This document shows, one piece after another, positions 25,892 to 34,940 of a DNA stretch of 36,565 bases (within the stretch, counting starts at the first letter, position 1; every line of letters starts with the position of its first letter). Under the pieces are notes generated by a model. The model saw nothing but the letters and a program-made list of their open reading frames with translations, did no database searches and was not told the origin of the DNA. The stretch lies in assembly GCA_948472945.1 (NCBI GenBank), contig CAOKVX010000023.1:1-36565 (forward strand). The letters run 5' to 3'. This DNA is from an uncultured Clostridia bacterium. Its GTDB lineage: Bacteria; Bacillota; Clostridia; Lachnospirales; Lachnospiraceae. A program made the position numbers and the translations under genes.

Positions 25892-25933
25892 ATCCATGCC
25901 TATAGGCATCCACGCTTATAGGAATCCACGCCC
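25892..25933 (+). repeat. 16-bp imperfect tandem repeat, about 2.6 units
   Basis: Units begin at 25892, 25908 and 25924 with ATCCATGCC or ATCCACGC. The first two full units end TATAGGC and TATAGGA. The third is cut after ten bases, where palindromic element A begins. Confidence 0.7.
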
Positions 25934-26002
25934 GAACACGGACTCTATTATGCAGGGCGGGGCCGCTTGCGCTAAGTTGCACAAATAGAGTCCGTGTTCA
26001 GG
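25931..26002 (-). repeat. Structured palindromic element A (short form)
   Basis: Nineteen-base arms (25931-25949 and 25984-26002) pair with one mismatch that would be a G-U in RNA. They enclose 34 nt. On the minus strand the loop holds AGCGCAAGCG followed by GCCC (AGCGCAAGCG is the complement of 25964-25973), the same motif as in elements B and C, but the central three-stem arm is absent. It lies in the 628-bp clpB-leuS gap, which holds no supportable gene. Confidence 0.65.
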
Positions 26003-26147
26003 CTGTGTACAGTAAAATACAGATGCGTGTTATATTATAAGTATTTTTGAAAGTATTTAAGTACTTTTGAAGTGTGAATCATAATTTGTCTTATTTCTAA
26101 AATGTATATCGTAACGATAATAAGATGTTCAGATTTACAATGTATTT

Positions 26148-26287
26148 GTCCCACGGATACGTATATGCTTTCACCCGGGTATTTACACACATCGGTTCTT
26201 GGGCTGCGTATTATGCAGCCTTAGAACCGCTATGTGTGTAACGAAGCGGGAGCGGCCCGGATAAAAGTTTATACGTATCCGTGGGAC
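26148..26287 (+). repeat. Structured palindromic element B (full form)
   Basis: Outer arms 26148-26165 and 26270-26287 form a perfect 18-bp stem. Inside are CCGGG/CCCGG (26175-26179 with 26256-26260), a 10-bp stem (26183-26192 with 26232-26241), a 7-bp stem (26193-26199 with 26223-26229) and a 6-bp stem (26202-26207 with 26215-26220) closed by loop GTATTAT. AGCGGGAGCG (26245-26254), a possible GNRA tetraloop closed by GC/GC, follows. The architecture matches element C while the paired bases differ. No ORF lies within it. It is near the leuS 3' end but in opposite orientation. Confidence 0.8.
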
Positions 26288-26325
26288 GGCGTACGTTCAT
26301 ACAATTGTACGTTTACTCACTTATA

Positions 26326-28755
26326 TCACTTCATAACAATATTTACAATTCTTCCCGGAACATATATTTCCTTAATTACATTTCCGGTAAGCTTATCGGC
26401 GATACTGTCCTTAGCCGCCGCAATAACATCATCTTTCGCTGCGTCAACGGAAACCTTAATAGTTCCCTTGGTCTTTCCGTTAATCTGTACTGCGAGCTCA
26501 ACCGAATTCTCAACGGTCTTTGACTCGTCATACTTCGGCCAGCCCTCGTTAAATATGCTGCCCTCATGTCCGTACTGCTCCCAAATCTCTGAAGCTGCGT
26601 GAGGCGTAAACGGTGCCAGAAGTATTGTCATAGTCTCAATCAGCTCTCTATCAATGCCGCCCTGTTTGTTCGCTATCTCGTACATTTTGTTATTGTACTC
26701 CATAAATCCGCTGACAACGGTGTTAAGACTGAAAGCTTCGAGCCTCTTTGTTATATCCATAATAAGCTTATGGCGGATTCTCTCTGTCTCCTCGGTAGGC
26801 TTGATGTCCTTATCCTTATTGTCCATCGCAAGTTTCCAGAAACGATTTATGAATCTGTAAATTCCGTCAATTCCCCTGTCGTCCCAGATTGAATCAAGTT
26901 CAGGCGGTCCGATGAAAAGCTCATAAAGCCTTAGGGAATCACAGCCGTAATCCCTGACAATATCATCAGGGCTTACTATGTTGCCGAGCGATTTGCTCAT
27001 CTTTGTCGCCGCACCCGTCTCCTTGTCTCGTCCACAGACCATTCCCTGATTAAAAAGCTTGGTGAACGGCTCGTCAAATTCAACCACACCTATATCGTGC
27101 AGGAATTTTGTATAAAACCTTGAGTACAGCAGATGTAAAACAGCGTGCTCCACTCCGCCGATGTACATATCGACCGGAAGATATTTTGACGCTTTCTCCT
27201 TAGAAACAAGCTCATCGCTGTTTTTGCTATCCACATAACGCAGGAAATACCATGATGAACCGGCCCACTGCGGCATTGTGTTAGTCTCACGCTTTGCAGG
27301 CGCCCCGCAGCATGGACACGTCGTGTTTACCCAATCTTCTATGTCTGCCAGCGGCGATTCACCCGTGCCGGTAGGCTGATAGCTGTCAACCTCTGGAAGA
27401 AGAAGCGGAAGTTCCTCCTCCGGAACCGGAACCGCGCCGCACTTCTCACAGTGTACAATCGGAATAGGCTCACCCCAGTAACGCTGCCTTGAAAATACCC
27501 AGTCCCTCAGCTTATAGTTGACAGTCTTGCGTCCAAATCCCATCTTTTCAATCATTATAGGGGCTTCTTTTTTGAGGACGGCCGACTCCATTCCGTTCCA
27601 GTCTCCCGAGTTTATCATTGTTCCCGAAGCGTCAGTGTACGCTTCGGTCATATTTTCTATCTCTTTGCCGTCTTTCGCTATAACCTGTATAATAGGAATA
27701 TCGAATTTCTTTGCAAACTCAAAATCCCTGTCGTCATGCGCAGGAACGCACATTATTGCTCCCGTGCCGTAATCGGCGAGCACATAGTCAGAAAGCCAGA
27801 TAGGCACTTTTTCATTGTTGAGCGGGTTAATCGCATAACTTCCTGTAAATACGCCTGTTTTTTCTTTATCCTGAAGTCTGTCAACTGACGATTTCATAGA
27901 CGCTTTGTATATGTAATTTTCAACCTCCGCAAGTTTTTCAGGCGTCGCAAGGAATTTTGCCATCTCATGCTCTGGGGCCAGAACCATAAATGTAGCTCCG
28001 TAAAGCGTGTCAGGCCTCGTTGTGTATACCGTTATTGACTCGTCTTTTCCGTCGACCCTAAATTCAACCTCGGCGCCGTAGCTTCTTCCAATCCAGTCAG
28101 TCTGCATTTTCTTAACTTTTTCCGGCCACTCCAGTTTATCGAGGTCCTCAAGAAGCCTGTCTGCATATTTTGTAATCTTTAGCATCCACTGTTTCAAATC
28201 TTTTTTTGTTACCTGCGCGCCGCAGCGCTCACAGCATCCGTTAACTACCTCTTCATTTGCAAGGCCCGTCTTACATGAAGGACACCAGTTAATCGGCATC
28301 TGTTTCTCATATGCCAGCCCCGCCTTAAACATCTTAACAAAAATCCACTGTGTCCATTTATAAAATTCAGGGTCGGTCGTGTTAACTTCCATATCCCAGT
28401 CATATATTGCCGATATCTCGTTTATCTGCTTCTTAATGTTGCTCACATTCTCGGCCGTAGATTTTTTAGGGTGAACGCCCATCTTAATGGCATAATTCTC
28501 CGCCGGAAGACCAAAAGCATCCCATCCCATCGGATGAATCAGATAATAACCGTTGAGCATCTTATAGCGGCTCCACACATCCGATATTACATATCCTCTC
28601 CAATGTCCGACATGAAGACCGTTTCCCGACGGATACGGGAACATATCAAGACAATAGTATTTAGGTTTTTTTCCATCATCGACATTAACAGGGTTCTTCT
28701 CCCAATTTTTACGCCATTTCTGCTCAATTTCCTTATGATTATAGGATACTGCCAT
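26326..28755 (-). CDS. leuS: Leucyl-tRNA synthetase
   Basis: The 809-residue class I synthetase charges tRNA-Leu in the cytoplasm. Visible features are the HIGH-type HVGH in [16 protein letters not shown], a Cys4 zinc motif ([14 protein letters not shown]...CCERCG), the CP1 editing domain with [19 protein letters not shown] and the conserved [17 protein letters not shown], a second Cys4 motif (CEKCG...CPCCG), the tryptophan-rich [13 protein letters not shown], the KMSKS loop in [10 protein letters not shown] and an anticodon-binding C-domain. Length is normal for bacterial LeuRS. The ATG at 28755 is well placed after GGAGGAAG. No T-box leader (no TGGNACCGCGG antiterminator) is visible, so leucine-tRNA control would need another mechanism. 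Confidence 0.96.
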
Positions 28756-28820
28756 TACTTTTCTTCCTCCGTTATTATAATTAAACGCCTATTACAGCCT
28801 ATTACATGTGTTCGTGCTAT

Positions 28821-28848
28821 ATTATATTAATTTAAACTTCATATACAA
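28821..28848 (-). promoter_or_regulatory. Candidate leuS promoter
   Basis: TATAAT (28821-28826) lies 16 bp from TTGTAT (28843-28848) on the minus strand, giving a leader of about 60 nt. The -35 is poor and the region AT-rich. Confidence 0.4.
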
Positions 28849-28902
28849 CATTTGCCCGTATCACACTTGTAATTGAATATTTATATAATAATATACCATC
28901 TT

Positions 28903-30363
28903 TTAATTTAATGTCAATGCCGAAGGCGATGCGTCGGAGCCCTGTGCAGGATTTACCGTTACGACCACGCGCGTTACAAGATTGCCGCTTTTTGCCGCAT
29001 TAGACGCCGTGACAATGATTTCGGCGCTTCCCTCTCCCAAAGCAGTAACATTACCCGATGCATCCACCGATACGACTGCAGGGTTAGATGAGGCAAAAGA
29101 GTATGACAGATTCGATTTGCCCGTAGCCCCCGCCGGAAGAAGCGATGTACGAATAATCGTCTGCTGTCCCTTTGTCAAAACCGCCTGATCTACGGAAGCT
29201 GTTACGCTGCCCGCATATTTTCCTACATTAACCGTACAGTACTGTTTAATATTAGAACCGTCTTTTGTTTTGGCGCTTATAACCGCACTTCCTGCTCCTA
29301 CCGCCTTTACCTTTCCTTTCGCATCAACAGTGGCAACATTAGTGTTGGATGATGTGAATTTCAATTCCTTAATAGACGCTTTGGACGGTGCGTATGACTT
29401 CATCTTGAGCTTAAATGATGAATCGCCAGCGTTTCCTCCGAGATAAAGTGATTTTGATGTCCTGTTCAGTTTAAATGATTTTATGAAAACCTGTCCGAGG
29501 ACATTATATTTTACCGAAAGCGAAGCCTTTCTTCCAATCTCGTCAGTCACCTTGAATTTTACTAAGTAAATACCGGCCCTGCCCGTGTTGACTTTCTTAA
29601 CCTTTTTCGCCTTAGCCTTTTTATCTTTCTTATATTTTACCGTGTAAGTTACTCTTTTTGACACATCAAATCCAGTCGTATTTTTTGCCGTAATTGTTTT
29701 AAGAATATTGACGTTTGATGCAAATCCTATGTTTGTATTGCCGCTGTTACCTTTCTTCAATGTTATCGAAGGCTTTTTATTATTGTAAGGATTAGCGGGA
29801 TTAGTATCGTCCGTAGGGTCCCATCCCCAATACCCCGACAGCTTAATTGCCTCAGGCTTTCCGAGCGGCCCCGGGTCCTTGGAGTTATATATTTCTACAG
29901 GAGTACCCGACGGCACATTGTTGTAAATCCACTTTGCATCCCTGACACAAAGCCTTACACAGCCGTGCGAGGCAACCTGTCCCAGTTTGTTGTACTGTGT
30001 GCACGACAAACTGGCAGGATTGTTGTTCTCATAATACCACACCGAATGAAACAGGATATGTCCTGTTATCCTTGTGCAGTACTGTCCGTATACAGGACCG
30101 TCCAGCTCGTGCCATCTTATCTTTTCCTTGAGCGGAAATGTTCCGAGCGGCGTTGCCGAACCCACCGAACATACCATCGCCTTGTACGGCTCGTACTTCC
30201 CTTTTTCATTCGCCTTATATATTGTCACGCAGTTCTGCTGCTTATTTATGCGAATCCTGTATGTAGACGCCGCCTGCGTATCTGAGTTCATAAAAATAAT
30301 CCCCAAGCCAACTGCCAGTAAAATATACAACGCCAACCTAAACTGTTTTATTTTATTATACAT
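28903..30363 (-). CDS. Exported L,D-transpeptidase (YkuD) with BIG2-like Ig repeats
   Basis: The protein has 486 residues. A signal anchor (about 7-31) is followed by a YkuD catalytic domain (about 34-157) with ILFHSVWYYE and SHGCVRLCVRDAKWIY, C135 being the nucleophile and the nearby His and Arg the rest of the active site. Such enzymes form 3-3 peptidoglycan cross-links or attach proteins to the wall. Next come an Ig-like region (about 205-290) and two BIG2-type repeats (about 300-385 and 390-480), with the SSNTNVATVDAKGKVKAVGAG and SSNPAVVSVDASGNVTALGEG signatures. GGGAGG precedes the ATG at 30363. It is monocistronic with a good promoter and a structured leader. Confidence 0.9.
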   Translation of the reverse strand: MYNKIKQFRLALYILLAVGLGIIFMNSDTQAASTYRIRINKQQNCVTIYKANEKGKYEPYKAMVCSVGSATPLGTFPLKEKIRWHELDGPVYGQYCTRITGHILFHSVWYYENNNPASLSCTQYNKLGQVASHGCVRLCVRDAKWIYNNVPSGTPVEIYNSKDPGPLGKPEAIKLSGYWGWDPTDDTNPANPYNNKKPSITLKKGNSGNTNIGFASNVNILKTITAKNTTGFDVSKRVTYTVKYKKDKKAKAKKVKKVNTGRAGIYLVKFKVTDEIGRKASLSVKYNVLGQVFIKSFKLNRTSKSLYLGGNAGDSSFKLKMKSYAPSKASIKELKFTSSNTNVATVDAKGKVKAVGAGSAVISAKTKDGSNIKQYCTVNVGKYAGSVTASVDQAVLTKGQQTIIRTSLLPAGATGKSNLSYSFASSNPAVVSVDASGNVTALGEGSAEIIVTASNAAKSGNLVTRVVVTVNPAQGSDASPSALTLN

Positions 30364-30387
30364 AATAGACCTCCCTTTATTCCCACG

Positions 30388-30428
30388 AGCCTGACTGACA
30401 TGCAGAAATACTGCGTGTCCAATCGGCT
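30388..30428 (-). promoter_or_regulatory. Hairpin in the 5' leader of the L,D-transpeptidase gene
   Basis: A 9-bp stem with one G-U (30397-30405 with 30411-30419, 5-nt loop) is nested inside a 4-bp AGCC/GGCT closing stem (30388-30391 with 30425-30428). It lies between the predicted transcript start and the ribosome site. Confidence 0.45.
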
Positions 30429-30444
30429 TCTATTACAGATTCTT

Positions 30445-30490
30445 ACTATAACAACATGTTGAAAATGTGTCAAGCAGGTCACATTTTCAA
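30445..30490 (-). promoter_or_regulatory. Promoter with overlapping operator-like inverted repeat, L,D-transpeptidase gene
   Basis: On the minus strand TTGACA (30468-30473) and TATAGT (30445-30450) are exactly 17 bp apart. An 11-bp perfect inverted repeat (30459-30469 with 30480-30490, 10-nt spacer) overlaps the -35 and spacer, a position suited to a repressor. Confidence 0.7.
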
Positions 30491-30658
30491 TGTATTTTTA
30501 TCATATTCATAATCCGCCTTTTACCGCCAAGATTTTTTCCATGCATTTGACTTTTTAGTTTCTATTACTTTCAGTCCGTTCAATTTGACCTACAGCCAGT
30601 CATAGCCGGAGACCGGACTTCATATAGTATAAAAACAAATAAGCTACAGGAGAATACC

Positions 30659-33277
30659 ATGTACACAAAATCAGTAAAAGAAGTCCTAAGAGCCTCCGGG
30701 GTTAATCCTGAAAAGGGTCTTGATTCGGGGGCATACGCCAAAAGATTAAAAAAATATGGCCCAAACGTCCTGCCGGAAGCAAAAAAAGAATCGGTTATTA
30801 AAAAATTTTTTTTGCAGCTAAAGGACTTTATGATATATACATTAATCGGAGCCGCAGCCATCTCATACACCGTCTCTTACATAGACGGAGAGCCCGATTA
30901 TATTGAGCCCTCAATTATTCTTTTAATAATTATCATGAACGGAATCATCGGGGTAATACAGGAAGTCCGAGCCGAAAACTCGATAAATGCCCTAAAAAAA
31001 ATGTGCGCCCCAACAGCAACCGTTCTCAGAGACGGCGTGTGGGCAAAGGATTCCGCCAAAAAGCTCGTACCGGGAGACATCATAATGCTTGAGACAGGAG
31101 CGCTTATACCCGCCGACGCAAGAATCATAAAATGTGAAAACCTGATGACTGACGAGGCGTCGCTAACCGGTGAATCGGCCCCTGTCAGCAAAACAACAGC
31201 AGAACTGCCATCCGGCACGCCGGTAAACGACAGGCTGAATATGGTTTACTCGGGATGCAGCATAAGCTATGGGCACGGCGTCGCAATAGTCACAGCTACA
31301 GGCCGCTCTACAGAGCTGGGACAGGTGGCCAGCATGCTTATAAATGAAATGACCCCGGATACCCCGCTGACAAGACGGCTTTCAAAAACCGGGAAAATAC
31401 TGAGCATAACGGCTCTCATAATCTGTATCATAATATTTTTTACCGGAATATTTAAAAACCGTCCCGTGCTTGAAATGTTCATGACTGCGGTCAGTCTAGC
31501 CGTAGCCGCAATTCCCGAGGGTCTTCCCGCTATCGTAACAATCATGCTGGCCAGAGGCGTTACTAAAATGGCCGCTCACAACGCCATAGTCAAGCGTCTT
31601 CCTGCAGTGGAAACGCTGGGAAGCACCACGGTCATCTGCTCTGATAAGACCGGAACCCTCACCGAGAACAAAATGAGGGTAATATCCGTCGCAAATTGCT
31701 CCGACATATTGAAAGCGTCAGATCCCCTGTATAAAACCACTCTCGAATACGCCGCCTTATGCAATAATTCTATAATACAGGAAAACGGCATAATAGGCGA
31801 GCCTACGGAAAATGCCCTATTGGCGGCCGCAAAAGAAATTACCGACATTGATTTGTTAAAAAGAAATTACAAGCGCATAAAAGAATTTCCTTTCACATCA
31901 GACCGCAAGCTTATGAGCACAATACACGCAAACGGAATTAGCGACAGCGCTTTTAGCGGCGGCGCTTTTAGCGGCGGCAGCAGAAATATACTTATATGCA
32001 AGGGCGCTCCCGACGTCCTGCTGCCTCTATGCACGCACTATTATGACGACGCATCAGCAAAAAAAATAAGCCCGTCTATACACAGCCGCATAATGAACCT
32101 CAACTCAGGACTTGCGCGCCAAGGTCTTAGAATCATAGCGGTCGCATACAGGGATCTGCACAGCGCAAAGGAAAAAAATCCTGAAAACAGCCTTACCTTT
32201 ATGGGCCTAATATCTATAGTGGACCCTCCCCGCAAAGAGGCTGCCGCCGCAGTACGCGAATGTAAAAAGGCCGGCATACATCCCGTTATGATAACCGGGG
32301 ACCACGCAGCCACAGCGGCATATATTGCGCGCGAGCTCGGAATATCAAAAAGTGAAAATGAAGTCATTACAGGCGATGCCCTAAACAAAATGTCCGAAGC
32401 CGAACTCTCAAAAAATGTACGCAGGTATAATGTTTACGCGAGGGTTACTCCGGAACACAAGCTGCGTCTCGTAAAGGCTTTTCAAAATAATGGGGAAATA
32501 GTTGCGATGACCGGGGACGGCGTAAACGACGCGCCCGCCCTCAAGGCCGCAGATATTGGCTGCGCGATGGGTATGAGCGGTACCGACGTCGCCAGAAATT
32601 CCTCCGACATAGTTCTCGAGGACGACAATTTTGCAACTATTACGAACGCAATACGCGAGGGGCGTACGATATATGATAATATAAAAAAGGCAATTCATTT
32701 TCTCATATCGTGCAACATAGGAGAGATTATGACCATATTCATGGCTATAATACTCGGATTTACCGCCCCTCTGTGCGCCGTGCAGCTATTATGGGTAAAC
32801 CTCGTAACGGATTCTTTCCCCGCATTATCGCTAGGAGTAGAGCCGCCGGACAGCAATGTGATGAACCGCCCGCCTGTATCACCCGAAAAAGGATTATTTT
32901 CTGACGGCATGGCGATAAAGATTCTAATAGAGGGAATGTTCATTGGAAGCATCTCTCTCGTGGCCTACGCATTCGGAATGAAATACGGCCCGGCTGAGGC
33001 CGGAACAATGTGCTTTGCGGTCCTCGGAATGTCACAGATTGCGCACTCTTTCAACTCAAAGAGCGAGCAGTCCCTGACAAAATCAGGCATATTTAACAAC
33101 AAAAAACTTGTGCTGTCCGCCATATTGTGTATCGCCCTGCAGGCAATCGTAATATGTATACCCGCACTGAACGCAGTATTTTCAACCGTAATGCTTACAG
33201 GAAACCAGTGGATTACGGTTATCATACTCTCACTTCTTCCGATACCTGTTGTCGAACTGCAGAAAGCACTAAGGTGA
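30659..33277 (+). CDS. P-type Ca2+-transporting ATPase (PMCA/SERCA-like)
   Basis: The 872-residue P2-type ATPase contains the cation-transporter N domain, the TGES actuator loop (170-173), M4 motif AAIPEGLPA (286-290), phosphorylation site DKTGTLT (D329), the KGAPD nucleotide-binding segment and the hinge TGDGVNDAPAL. Calcium-site residues are present in M5 (SCNIGEIMTIF) and M6 (NLVTDSFPALSLG). The M8 position equivalent to SERCA Glu908 appears to be Gln (GMSQIAHSFN), as in plasma-membrane types, suggesting one Ca2+ per ATP. It probably exports Ca2+. A 15-bp tandem duplication lies in the N domain. An AGGAG ribosome site precedes the ATG. It is transcribed alone, divergently from the L,D-transpeptidase gene. 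Confidence 0.92.
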   Translation: MYTKSVKEVLRASGVNPEKGLDSGAYAKRLKKYGPNVLPEAKKESVIKKFFLQLKDFMIYTLIGAAAISYTVSYIDGEPDYIEPSIILLIIIMNGIIGVIQEVRAENSINALKKMCAPTATVLRDGVWAKDSAKKLVPGDIIMLETGALIPADARIIKCENLMTDEASLTGESAPVSKTTAELPSGTPVNDRLNMVYSGCSISYGHGVAIVTATGRSTELGQVASMLINEMTPDTPLTRRLSKTGKILSITALIICIIIFFTGIFKNRPVLEMFMTAVSLAVAAIPEGLPAIVTIMLARGVTKMAAHNAIVKRLPAVETLGSTTVICSDKTGTLTENKMRVISVANCSDILKASDPLYKTTLEYAALCNNSIIQENGIIGEPTENALLAAAKEITDIDLLKRNYKRIKEFPFTSDRKLMSTIHANGISDSAFSGGAFSGGSRNILICKGAPDVLLPLCTHYYDDASAKKISPSIHSRIMNLNSGLARQGLRIIAVAYRDLHSAKEKNPENSLTFMGLISIVDPPRKEAAAAVRECKKAGIHPVMITGDHAATAAYIARELGISKSENEVITGDALNKMSEAELSKNVRRYNVYARVTPEHKLRLVKAFQNNGEIVAMTGDGVNDAPALKAADIGCAMGMSGTDVARNSSDIVLEDDNFATITNAIREGRTIYDNIKKAIHFLISCNIGEIMTIFMAIILGFTAPLCAVQLLWVNLVTDSFPALSLGVEPPDSNVMNRPPVSPEKGLFSDGMAIKILIEGMFIGSISLVAYAFGMKYGPAEAGTMCFAVLGMSQIAHSFNSKSEQSLTKSGIFNNKKLVLSAILCIALQAIVICIPALNAVFSTVMLTGNQWITVIILSLLPIPVVELQKALR
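31949..31978 (+). repeat. 15-bp tandem duplication inside the Ca2+ ATPase gene
   Basis: GCTTTTAGCGGCGGC occurs twice in succession, in frame, giving AFSGGAFSGG in a surface stretch of the nucleotide-binding domain between TIHANGISDS and SRNILICKGAPD. Confidence 0.85.
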
Positions 33278-33333
33278 AGATTGTGCAGATATAGGGGATT
33301 TCTGCATTGCGATTTCCTGACACTTTAATTTTT

Positions 33334-33550
33334 CAGGGCAATCACTTAAAATTATGTTTCAGGCTCCGGGCAACTATCTGTATTCATGTAGGGATATTTG
33401 CAGACATTGGTACTTAGGCAGCGTATTTTGCTGCCTTATGTACCACTATGTCTGCAATTAAAGCGCGAGCGTGCCCGGAATGAATACAGATAGTTGCCCG
33501 GAGCCTATATCAAATATTAAAAAGTGACTGCCCTGTTAATTTTTTACTGC
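33334..33550 (+). terminator. Terminator hairpin split by palindromic element C
   Basis: Arms 33334-33347 and 33522-33535 pair over 14 positions with one mismatch, and the right arm is followed by TTAATTTTTT. This is a good rho-independent terminator for the Ca2+ ATPase gene, except that its loop contains the whole 146-bp element C. Confidence 0.65.
33361..33506 (+). repeat. Structured palindromic element C (full form)
   Basis: Outer arms 33361-33387 and 33480-33506 form a perfect 27-bp stem. Inside are a 10-bp stem (33398-33407 with 33448-33457), a 6-bp stem (33408-33413 with 33440-33445) and a 7-bp stem (33416-33422 with 33430-33436) closed by loop GTATTTT. AGCGCGAGCG (33462-33471) and GCCCGG follow. 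Order, stem lengths and loops match element B, while most paired bases are different but still complementary. It occupies the 339-bp gap between the Ca2+ ATPase and GH13 genes. Confidence 0.8.
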
Positions 33551-33616: not shown

Positions 33617-34924
33617 ATGTGGACTGACAACAGTGTATTTTATCAGATATACCCCCTTGGGTTCTGCGGAGCCCCATTTGAGAACGACGGAATACCGTCA
33701 GACCGTATTACAAAGGTTTTGGACTGGATTCCTCATATTAAGGAATTAGGCGCAGACGCAGTATATTTTTCGCCGGTTTTTGAATCCGATACGCACGGAT
33801 ACAACACAAGGGATTACAAAAAAATAGACATAAGGCTTGGGACAAACGACAATTTCAGGGAAGTATGTGCCGCGCTTTCGGACAATGGCATAAGGGTCGT
33901 CCTCGACGGCGTATTTAACCATGTCGGACGGGGATTTTCCGCTTTCCGCGACGTGCTGGAAAACAGGCATAATTCCCGTTACAAGGACTGGTTTTTCATA
34001 GATTTCAACGGCAATTCAAACTATAACGACGGCCTTTGGTATGAGGGCTGGGAGGGCAATTACGACCTTGTTAAGCTCAATCTTAGAAATGAGGAAGTAA
34101 TATCTCATATTTTTGACGCTGTTGAGTTCTGGGTAAAAGAGTTTGGCATCGACGGGCTCAGGCTCGATGTGGCCTACTGCCTCGACATGGATTTTTTGAA
34201 AAGGCTGCGCAGCTTCTGCAGTCGGCTAAAACCTGATTTTGTTCTTATCGGCGAGCTCCTGCACGGCGATTACAACAGATTTGTAAACGAAGAAATGCTT
34301 CACAGCTGCACCAATTATGAATGTTACAAAGGCTTATATTCAAGCTTTAACTCCATGAACATGTTTGAAATTGTACACTCGCTGCTGCGACAGTTCGGGC
34401 CTGAAAACTGGACGTTATACAGGGGAAAGCACCTTCTTTGCTTTGTCGACAATCACGACGTTTCGCGTATCGCAAGCAGTCTTAGCAACGAGAACCATCT
34501 GAAACCAATCTACGCAATGCTTTTTAGCATGCCCGGTATTCCATGCGTATATTACGGAAGCGAATGGGGCGCAAAGGCTGATAAGAGCGAGGGAGACCCT
34601 GCCCTCCGCGCATGTTTTCCCCTACCGCTTCGCAATGAACTTACAGCGTATATATCCGTCCTCGCGGATGCGCACAAAAACAGCGACGCTCTTTGTAACG
34701 GAGATTTTTACTCAAAGGTTCTTCAAAACAAACACTGCGTATTTGAGCGAAACTGCGGCCATGAGCGCGTCTACTCGGCCATAAATGCCGACGCCGAGGC
34801 CGTGTCCGTCTCATTTGACGCAGGCACCGACAAACTTGTTGACCTCATCACAGGCAAAGAATATGATTATAACGGAAATATAACAATTCCTGCCTACAGC
34901 GCAATGTACCTGAAAGCTTTATAA
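33617..34924 (+). CDS. GH13 alpha-amylase-family enzyme, cytoplasmic
   Basis: The protein has 435 residues and no signal peptide. The (beta/alpha)8 barrel motifs are in order: DGVFNHVGR (region I, about 97-105), GLRLDVAYC (region II, nucleophile D184), VLIGELLHGD (region III, acid/base E213) and FVDNHDVSR (region IV, D281). A short C-terminal beta domain ends the protein (DLITGKEYDYNGNITIPAYSAMYLKAL). It probably hydrolyses or rearranges maltodextrins inside the cell (cyclomaltodextrinase/neopullulanase-like or oligo-1,4-glucan type); specificity is not decidable here. I chose the ATG at 33617 because GGAGG lies eight bases upstream; an upstream in-frame start at 33524 would span the promoter and sit in the element C terminator. 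The stop codon lies inside a perfect palindrome. Confidence 0.9.
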   Translation: MWTDNSVFYQIYPLGFCGAPFENDGIPSDRITKVLDWIPHIKELGADAVYFSPVFESDTHGYNTRDYKKIDIRLGTNDNFREVCAALSDNGIRVVLDGVFNHVGRGFSAFRDVLENRHNSRYKDWFFIDFNGNSNYNDGLWYEGWEGNYDLVKLNLRNEEVISHIFDAVEFWVKEFGIDGLRLDVAYCLDMDFLKRLRSFCSRLKPDFVLIGELLHGDYNRFVNEEMLHSCTNYECYKGLYSSFNSMNMFEIVHSLLRQFGPENWTLYRGKHLLCFVDNHDVSRIASSLSNENHLKPIYAMLFSMPGIPCVYYGSEWGAKADKSEGDPALRACFPLPLRNELTAYISVLADAHKNSDALCNGDFYSKVLQNKHCVFERNCGHERVYSAINADAEAVSVSFDAGTDKLVDLITGKEYDYNGNITIPAYSAMYLKAL

Positions 34925-34940
34925 AGCTTTCAGGTACATT
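34903..34940 (+). terminator. Perfect 38-bp palindrome over the GH13 stop codon
   Basis: Bases 34903-34921 and 34922-34940 are exact reverse complements with no spacer. The TAA stop (34922-34924) is at the centre, and AATCTTATTT follows. It probably acts as a terminator or 3' protecting hairpin. The remaining gap to 35063 shows nothing else beyond the short glnA terminator. Confidence 0.65.

Follow-up and report, generated by a model that had tools for sequence, protein, structure and literature searches.

The BOX, RUP and SPRITE repeats of pneumococcus are described, in the excerpt of PMC3049150 used here, as short interspersed and strongly structured sequences that are lineage-restricted and likely affect co-transcribed genes. 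The Correia repeat enclosed elements (CREEs) of Neisseria can be bound or cleaved by RNase III, and most of their locations are common to strains while some are mobile (PMC2649163, in excerpt). Repetitive extragenic palindromes (REPs) are intergenic, often located downstream of genes, only 20-40 bp long and marked by a tag, GTAG or CGTC (PMC3733652, in excerpt), and an excerpt of PMC8040213 reports 250 palindromic candidates from human microbiomes. With respect to hairpin symmetry as such, homogenisation of the arms by template switching, leading to instant compensatory change, has been proposed for hairpins of ribosomal RNA (PMC8794818), and template switching between hairpin arms has been reported in yeast coding DNA (PMC8604942), both again in excerpt. 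Here we analysed two palindromic elements, B and C, on a stretch of 36,565 nucleotides (the window; contig CAOKVX010000023.1 of assembly GCA_948472945.1) of an uncultured Clostridia bacterium, the family of which we infer to be Lachnospiraceae. Judged from sequence, the B/C family seems to resemble BOX and the CREEs in kind and to be set apart by free arms, a shared core and conservation in place; it may be among the 250 candidates just mentioned.

With the BOX, RUP and SPRITE repeats the family has in common that it consists of short interspersed structured repeats, that it is lineage-restricted and that an effect on co-transcribed genes is likely, but going by the descriptions it occurs in another host, has a three-way core with a GNRA mini-hairpin and free arms, and its core is found within miniature inverted-repeat transposable elements (MITEs) of different ends. 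The likeness to the Correia elements lies in the inverted repeat around a conserved core and the position near genes, whereas by description the host, the repeat and the free arm sequence differ. Like the REPs and their associated tyrosine transposases (RAYTs), the elements are palindromic, intergenic, often gene-downstream and present in many copies, but B and C measure 140-146 nt without a tagged stem of REP size (CGTCC ends were seen on some other copies, not on B or C) and several many-copy genomes lack the transposase domain PF01797. Bacterial MITEs share with C and with the copies in genome G213 (genomes and loci are cited by our own G and L numbers) the terminal repeats, the target duplications and a length too short for a transposase gene; the differences are that one core occurs in two unrelated end types, that B and L160 are without such ends, and that an autonomous partner was not seen in a limited search. 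The template-switch hairpins are alike in that one arm is copied from the other; here we infer such copying in a family of repeats whose arms reach ~60 nt.

The explanation that we favour, with about even confidence, is that B and C are mobile non-coding palindromic elements, with arms that would be renewed at the DNA level and a core that would act in cis at gene borders. A hairpin would form at the replication fork or during movement, and one arm would template the other by template switching, by which the arms would change in concert and could even lengthen symmetrically. Once inserted, the element would join the neighbouring transcription unit as a structure acting in cis, and its core would be kept. 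Usually it would be the first strong structure past the stop codon, where it would form the hairpin at the transcript end or a site of processing, and more rarely a leader hairpin ahead of a ribosome-binding site. Some copies, including C, travel within MITEs.

Both elements had been pointed out in an earlier note on this DNA, and they are present and fold as described there: the predicted folds of B (-86.7 kcal/mol, z -12.1) and C (-94.5 kcal/mol, z -14.1), both for the + strand, were equalled in stability by 0 of 200 shuffles. The outer stems of 18 and 27 bp, the loops, the AGCG motif and the named base pairs were all recovered on reading the sequence. The motif AGCGNRAGCGNSCCSG occurs three times in the window when at most one mismatch is allowed, where 0.01 occurrences are expected, and the third match belongs to a shortened element, A, which was missing from the earlier note.

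To describe the family, a covariance model (R1) was built from 12 aligned copies, gathered by pattern and BLAST searches. In the genome of origin R1 gave 35 matches at E<=0.1, which correspond to 29 distinct places after merging of 6 opposite-strand matches, the weakest of which may be chance. Matches were found in 8 of the 10 genomes of the genus (own genome included), and in a sample of the family (presumably Lachnospiraceae) 114 of 299 genomes and 113 of 298 genera, again including the own genome, showed a match at E<=0.01; 13 candidates were scored per genome in this sample, making the per-genome counts lower bounds. Within a class-wide sample 8 of 341 genomes matched, all 8 belonging to that same family. 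In a scan of named sequences at least 120 stretches matched, and those listed were mostly from Lachnospiraceae, including Anaerobium acetethylicum, Anaerosporobacter faecicola, Anaerocolumna, Mobilitalea and Kineothrix, and among the matches listed some carried the labels Gastranaerophilales, Bacillus, Muribaculum or Clostridiaceae. The proposal that B and C form a family was thus borne out by many further copies in the genome and in other Lachnospiraceae. As also anticipated, no Rfam family could be assigned: none of the families of Rfam release 15 reached its gathering score anywhere in the window, and the matches at E<=1, to microRNA-precursor models far below their cut-offs, were taken as generic hairpins. 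A published description of the family was not found by title or abstract opening, in a search that covered few subscription journals. Phage origin was considered and rejected, as the exact core pattern, in this exact form only, matched 0 viral contigs. Of 169 listed model matches, 131 were used (repeated places, opposite-strand matches, L067 and the cut-off match L096:2692 were dropped); from the pattern search in 98 genomes, L007-L012, L014, L018, L021, L022 and L025-L027 were excluded by eye as chance-like, and the short forms A, L001, L002, L017 and L023 stand outside these counts.

Table 1. Positions of the elements and associated features in the window
Feature	Position	Strand	Details
Element B, full copy	26148..26287	+	Outer arms 26148-26165 and 26270-26287, perfectly complementary
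Core of B	26167..26266	+	Covariance model R1, 94.8 bits; GGG/CCC stem, long hairpin, GC-GGGA-GC mini-hairpin
AGCGGGAGCGGCCCGG motif of B	26245..26260	+	GNRA mini-hairpin and closing stem; motif scan, loop survey
Element C, full copy	33361..33506	+	Outer arms 33361-33387 and 33480-33506, perfectly complementary
Core of C	33382..33484	+	Covariance model R1, 113 bits
AGCGCGAGCGTGCCCG motif of C	33462..33477	+	Motif scan
MITE enclosing C, 202 bp	33334..33535		Terminal inverted repeats CAGGGCAATCACTT... / ...AAGTGACTGCCCTG
Left target-site duplication of C's MITE	33325..33333	+	TTAATTTTT, 9 bp
Right target-site duplication of C's MITE	33536..33544	+	TTAATTTTT, 9 bp
Element A, shortened copy without long inner hairpin	25930..26003	-	Motif AGCGCAAGCGGCCCCG at 25958-25973
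leuS (leucine--tRNA ligase)	26326..28755	-	TIGR00396, 1062 bits

The core common to the copies is a three-way junction, in which a long hairpin and a mini-hairpin with a GNRA loop meet a GGG/CCC stem; the self-complementary arms that flank it are free in sequence. Among the 12 aligned copies, 20 of the 34 predicted pairs show a double change. Extending this to 117 distinct copies, in an alignment that was fitted to the covariance model and is thus biased toward pairing, 93.8% of 3937 cells were paired versus a shuffled mean of 66.7%, sliding the partners by 1-3 columns lowered the pairing to 27.3-42.9%, and 1088 double-change cells were counted versus a shuffled mean of 299, with a double change at 32 of the 34 pairs. 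The earlier observation that structure is kept while sequence changes therefore holds across 117 copies, and family membership and structure are well supported. Several unpaired positions are conserved as well, in part favoured by a model built from 12 copies with such features: the four-base loop of the mini-hairpin is GNRA in 115/116 cases and its third base is always a purine, the 3' internal loop reads TTA in 107/117 copies and the bulge CT or TT in 109/117. The apical loop is looser (GTATTTT in 39/117, GTACTTT in 16/117 and GTTTTTT in 14/117, the remainder being mostly related), and the loop-closing pair is G.U on the AGCG strand in 100/115 copies. One copy, L068 (G000:C6:43709), contains an extra palindrome of ~40 nt within one side of the inner hairpin.

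That the family is mobile is well supported, by the absence of a unit from the corresponding site of relatives and by target duplications around others. L160 is a unit of 183 bp in G254 that interrupts a site which is intact in G519, and of 18 further genus loci it is also missing at the 13 that align clearly across the junction (length differences at these 13 of -34 to +24), the other 5 being ambiguous. Neither arm was found by eye at the empty L160 site, and the arms were thus rejected as inverted copies of the target. L157 was not used as a clean insertion case, because it is absent from G519 yet the loci differ by 13 nt besides, and neither was L359, which gave no alignment with G254 stretch L370. 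The MITE around C is flanked by a duplication (Table 1), and the related genome G008 contains small MITEs that share its ends and lack the core; one of these core-less MITEs, L055, has its own 9-bp duplication, TCCTTATTT, and in the second one read, L049, no target duplication was visible. The units in G213 are ~260 bp long with terminal repeats and duplications: terminal inverted repeats were found in 8/8 copies (the right end of L137 was placed by hand, with one base deleted), the ends match over 8-9 bp in 8/8 copies compared to at least 8 bp in 2 of 56 cross-pairs, and the duplication proper is ~7 bp. The contrast with a MITE drawn in the earlier note was therefore too strong, considering that a MITE carries C and that the G213 units are MITE-like. 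MITE-type terminal repeats were not seen at B and L160, and for 14 of the 16 copies in G157 no pair of ends was found within the search range.

Given that two unrelated kinds of MITE ends (the C type and the G213 type) carry one and the same core, it is likely that several enzymes mobilise the elements in trans; no such enzyme was found in the searches described next. CAGGGC ends were found only in G000 and G008 (61 genomes, 21 places), with no long unit among them, and ends of the GTGTCAAAAGCCC type at no fewer than 69 places in G213 and 111 in G157. An autonomous transposon with matching ends was not noticed in a limited search that covered the CAGGGC ends in 61 genomes and the GTGTCAAAAGCCC-type ends among the matches listed. 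The domain of the Y1 (RAYT/IS200) transposases, PF01797, does not follow the copies: of 22 copy-bearing genomes 11 have it, as do 14 of the 16 genomes that carry no copy. G000, G001, G008, G046 and G213 are among the 11 copy-bearing genomes that lack it. The Y1/HUH transposases were on this ground rejected as the mobilising enzyme, and the idea of a single-strand recombinase, which was checked for Y1 transposases only, gained no support. Tandem arrays of 3-4 elements occur at L146, L148 and L150 (G157) and at L223 (Anaerobium acetethylicum), with fixed spacings of 211, 148, 187 and 178 bp. At L171 (G001:C2:87000-91500) five model matches alternate with two reading frames that are nearly identical to each other (172 and 176 amino acids); a Pfam match was absent for the one frame scanned, whose end presumably resembles the C-terminus of Rpn-type nucleases.

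The earlier note took compensatory change as a sign of selection on structure. The pairing is indeed kept, but the conclusion was too strong, as wobble pairs are scarce and copying between arms may explain the changes. With a scoring equal for all mismatches, the inner hairpin contains 1818 Watson-Crick pairs, 7 G.U, 12 A.C and 106 other mismatches, and the outer arms 2640, 58, 36 and 80, respectively; a looser arm alignment of 128 copies gave 4434 Watson-Crick, 119 G.U, 145 A.C and 378 other. In the model alignment, where wobble is preferred to other mismatches, we counted 173 G.U versus 73 A.C for all pairs, 73 versus 72 once the conserved loop-closing G.U was set aside, and 51 versus 15 for the best-aligned helices (shift-prone columns and the loop-closing pair excluded). 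In 23 tRNAs from the same loci we counted 468 Watson-Crick pairs, 28 G.U and 0 A.C, the latter zero being weak since the tRNA finder itself favours standard pairs. By every count wobble is thus rarer than in the tRNAs (a G.U share of ~0.4-2% versus 5.6%, the loop-closing pair excluded).

The arms themselves are most informative in G315, where 11 pairs of copies have cores that are at least 95% identical and arms that are on average 71% and at lowest 63% identical. The arms of the nine G315 copies range from 28 to 59 nt and pair gap-free, with one mismatch at the most. Four copies have arms of the same length, and at 13 of their 32 arm pairs the Watson-Crick pair differs between copies; 7 of these 13 require transversions on both sides, and 125 of 128 cells are Watson-Crick. 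Considering the matched length changes and the few intermediates, switching of the template from arm to arm fits best, and the scarcity of wobble together with gap-free arms of varying length points to copying of the arms at the DNA level as one source of the covariation. Arm-to-arm copying by template switching is therefore probable, and the covariation in the B/C family does not by itself prove selection on RNA, which may nevertheless contribute. RNA structure is by convention proven through covariation; a family with strong covariation, scarce wobble and arms that change length in step suggests that DNA-level copying can give the same signal. As separate observations by eye, L078, L086, L094 and L031 (G002) show, in their right flanks, arm-like short tandem repeats after the outer arm ends, as if amplified, and in L002 (G000:C13:12526-15541) some of the inner part has the opposite orientation to that in B, which a template switch could yield.

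The evidence that the core matters, from conserved loops and orthologous copies, is separate from the covariation. Ten orthologous elements common to G254 and G519 were available among the loci fetched. Their cores are identical at 787/803 positions (98.0%), their arms at 530/608 (87.2%) and the far flanks at 892/1161 (76.8%), a contrast between core and flank that is an upper estimate since the orthologues were picked with the model; the main pieces of the whole loci align at 86-95%. When the cores were trimmed and aligned separately, the orthologous mean was 96.8% (90-100%), compared to 71.5% (highest 85.4%) for the 90 non-orthologous pairs. The difference between cores and far flanks suggests that the core is selected in place, at each site. 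In 3 of the 10 pairs (L159/L354, L162/L355 and L155/L353) the arms look by eye as if rewritten on both sides with the core unchanged. Of the orthologous paired positions that changed, 16 went to or from wobble and 10 to A.C, 23 were lost and 12 had gaps; among the double changes pairing was kept in 7 and lost in 2.

The position relative to genes was surveyed for 120 copies having both neighbours, taken as mechanically called reading frames with a minimum of 90 codons. In 52 of 72 copies there is an opposite-strand stop codon no more than 110 nt to the right of the core, and in 21 of 59 a same-strand stop no more than 110 nt to the left (p 4e-5 for the strand bias, uncorrected for relatedness or tandem copies). 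Many copies are thus situated at gene ends, in agreement with the earlier note. For the AGCG strand no downstream preference was found (the neighbour on the left is + in 59/120 and - in 61/120), and convergent gene pairs may hold one copy per gene end (L153, L020). B is located 38 bp beyond the stop codon of leuS, and the G254 copies L157, L159 and L160 end 34-61 nt upstream of a start codon. A promoter of its own left of the core was rejected, the mean score being that of shuffles, and so was a function deduced from the neighbours: 20 of the 54 proteins whose stop abuts an element were scanned and gave 15 assorted Pfam matches and 5 without any. A common Lachnospiraceae element that lacks an Rfam match and is apparently kept at gene borders may shape transcript ends in gut and rumen bacteria.

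Several observations weigh against mobile elements with renewed arms and a cis-acting core. A cis-acting role would follow from conservation and position, as read from sequence. At the leuS site a model match was found in 1 of the 10 genus genomes only (the own genome), and the leuS genes of at least 8 of 9 relatives are followed, by eye, by an ordinary terminator; no T-run was read after either arm of B, which is therefore no standard intrinsic terminator. The GNRA loop with its invariable purine is RNA-like. Whether G.U exceeds A.C in the elements varies with the counting method, the zero for the tRNAs is of limited weight, and both orthologues were found via a model that favours conserved cores. 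Strongly diverged arms occur in only one (G315) of the six genomes with near-identical-core pairs, the mean arm identity in the others being 0.98 (G213), 0.93 (G157), 1.0 (G046), 0.87 (G001) and 1.0 (G002), and copies of G254, G046 and G002 have several mismatches or gaps in their arms. The many single-sided changes in orthologous arms and stems imply that repair of the arms is not instant. Finally, the target duplication is absent from the two G157 units having both ends and is 2 bp at most at L160. The wobble recount on the model alignment lowered our confidence in this explanation from slightly better than even to even.

The same recount marginally lowered a further reading, which we regard as possible though rather doubtful, namely a self-templating palindrome whose arms would inherit foldedness and not sequence, with a core that would have been domesticated family-wide to serve at gene borders, where a dedicated protein or nuclease would recognise it. 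Unlikely, in our estimation, is that the copies are purely parasitic MITE-like repeats, in which the core would be a mobilisation need, the pairing a mutation bias and the conservation a result of turnover, conversion or ascertainment. The terminal repeats, target duplications and core-less small MITEs with the same ends, the insertion polymorphism and the tandem copies would all fit, as would the choice of orthologues with the model, and the BOX, RUP and SPRITE repeats are deemed parasitic by their authors (excerpt of PMC3049150). However, orthologous cores are far better conserved than the far flanks, conversion between copies would blur the gap between orthologous and non-orthologous cores, and MITE ends were not seen at B and L160.

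An equally doubtful alternative holds that the elements are selected as RNA on the AGCG strand, as a leader or an independent small RNA, with covariation by ordinary compensatory mutation; the recount raised it somewhat, from a still lower level. The GNRA loops, the G.U closing pair on the AGCG strand, the excess of G.U over A.C in the best-aligned helices and in the arms, and the three copies that end shortly ahead of a start codon argue for it. Against it stand the low G.U share relative to tRNAs, the inner hairpin with fewer G.U than A.C, the AGCG strand without preference for the downstream side of genes, the promoter-like sites that are not enriched left of the core, and arm lengths that change symmetrically. 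A role as single-stranded DNA on which, once folded, a recombinase or HUH transposase would act, following attC- or REP-like logic, would account for the mostly Watson-Crick pairing, the conserved unpaired positions and the free stem sequence, but is very unlikely considering the distribution of PF01797 and the target duplications in G213 and at C. In analogy to the gyrase-binding BIMEs (bacterial interspersed mosaic elements), the copies could be cruciform-forming sites for a chromosome or topology protein. Free yet well-paired arms would favour extrusion, and such sites would suit the position after or between genes, where at the convergent pairs L153 and L020 each gene end has its own element. 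This reading is likewise very unlikely, since the fixed loop orientation and the strand bias relative to genes need an extra cause and occupancy is patchy at leuS, the one orthologous site tested genus-wide.

Apart from the B/C family, the window contains at 34903-34940, where an amylase-like gene ends, a perfect palindrome of 19 bp that has no spacer.

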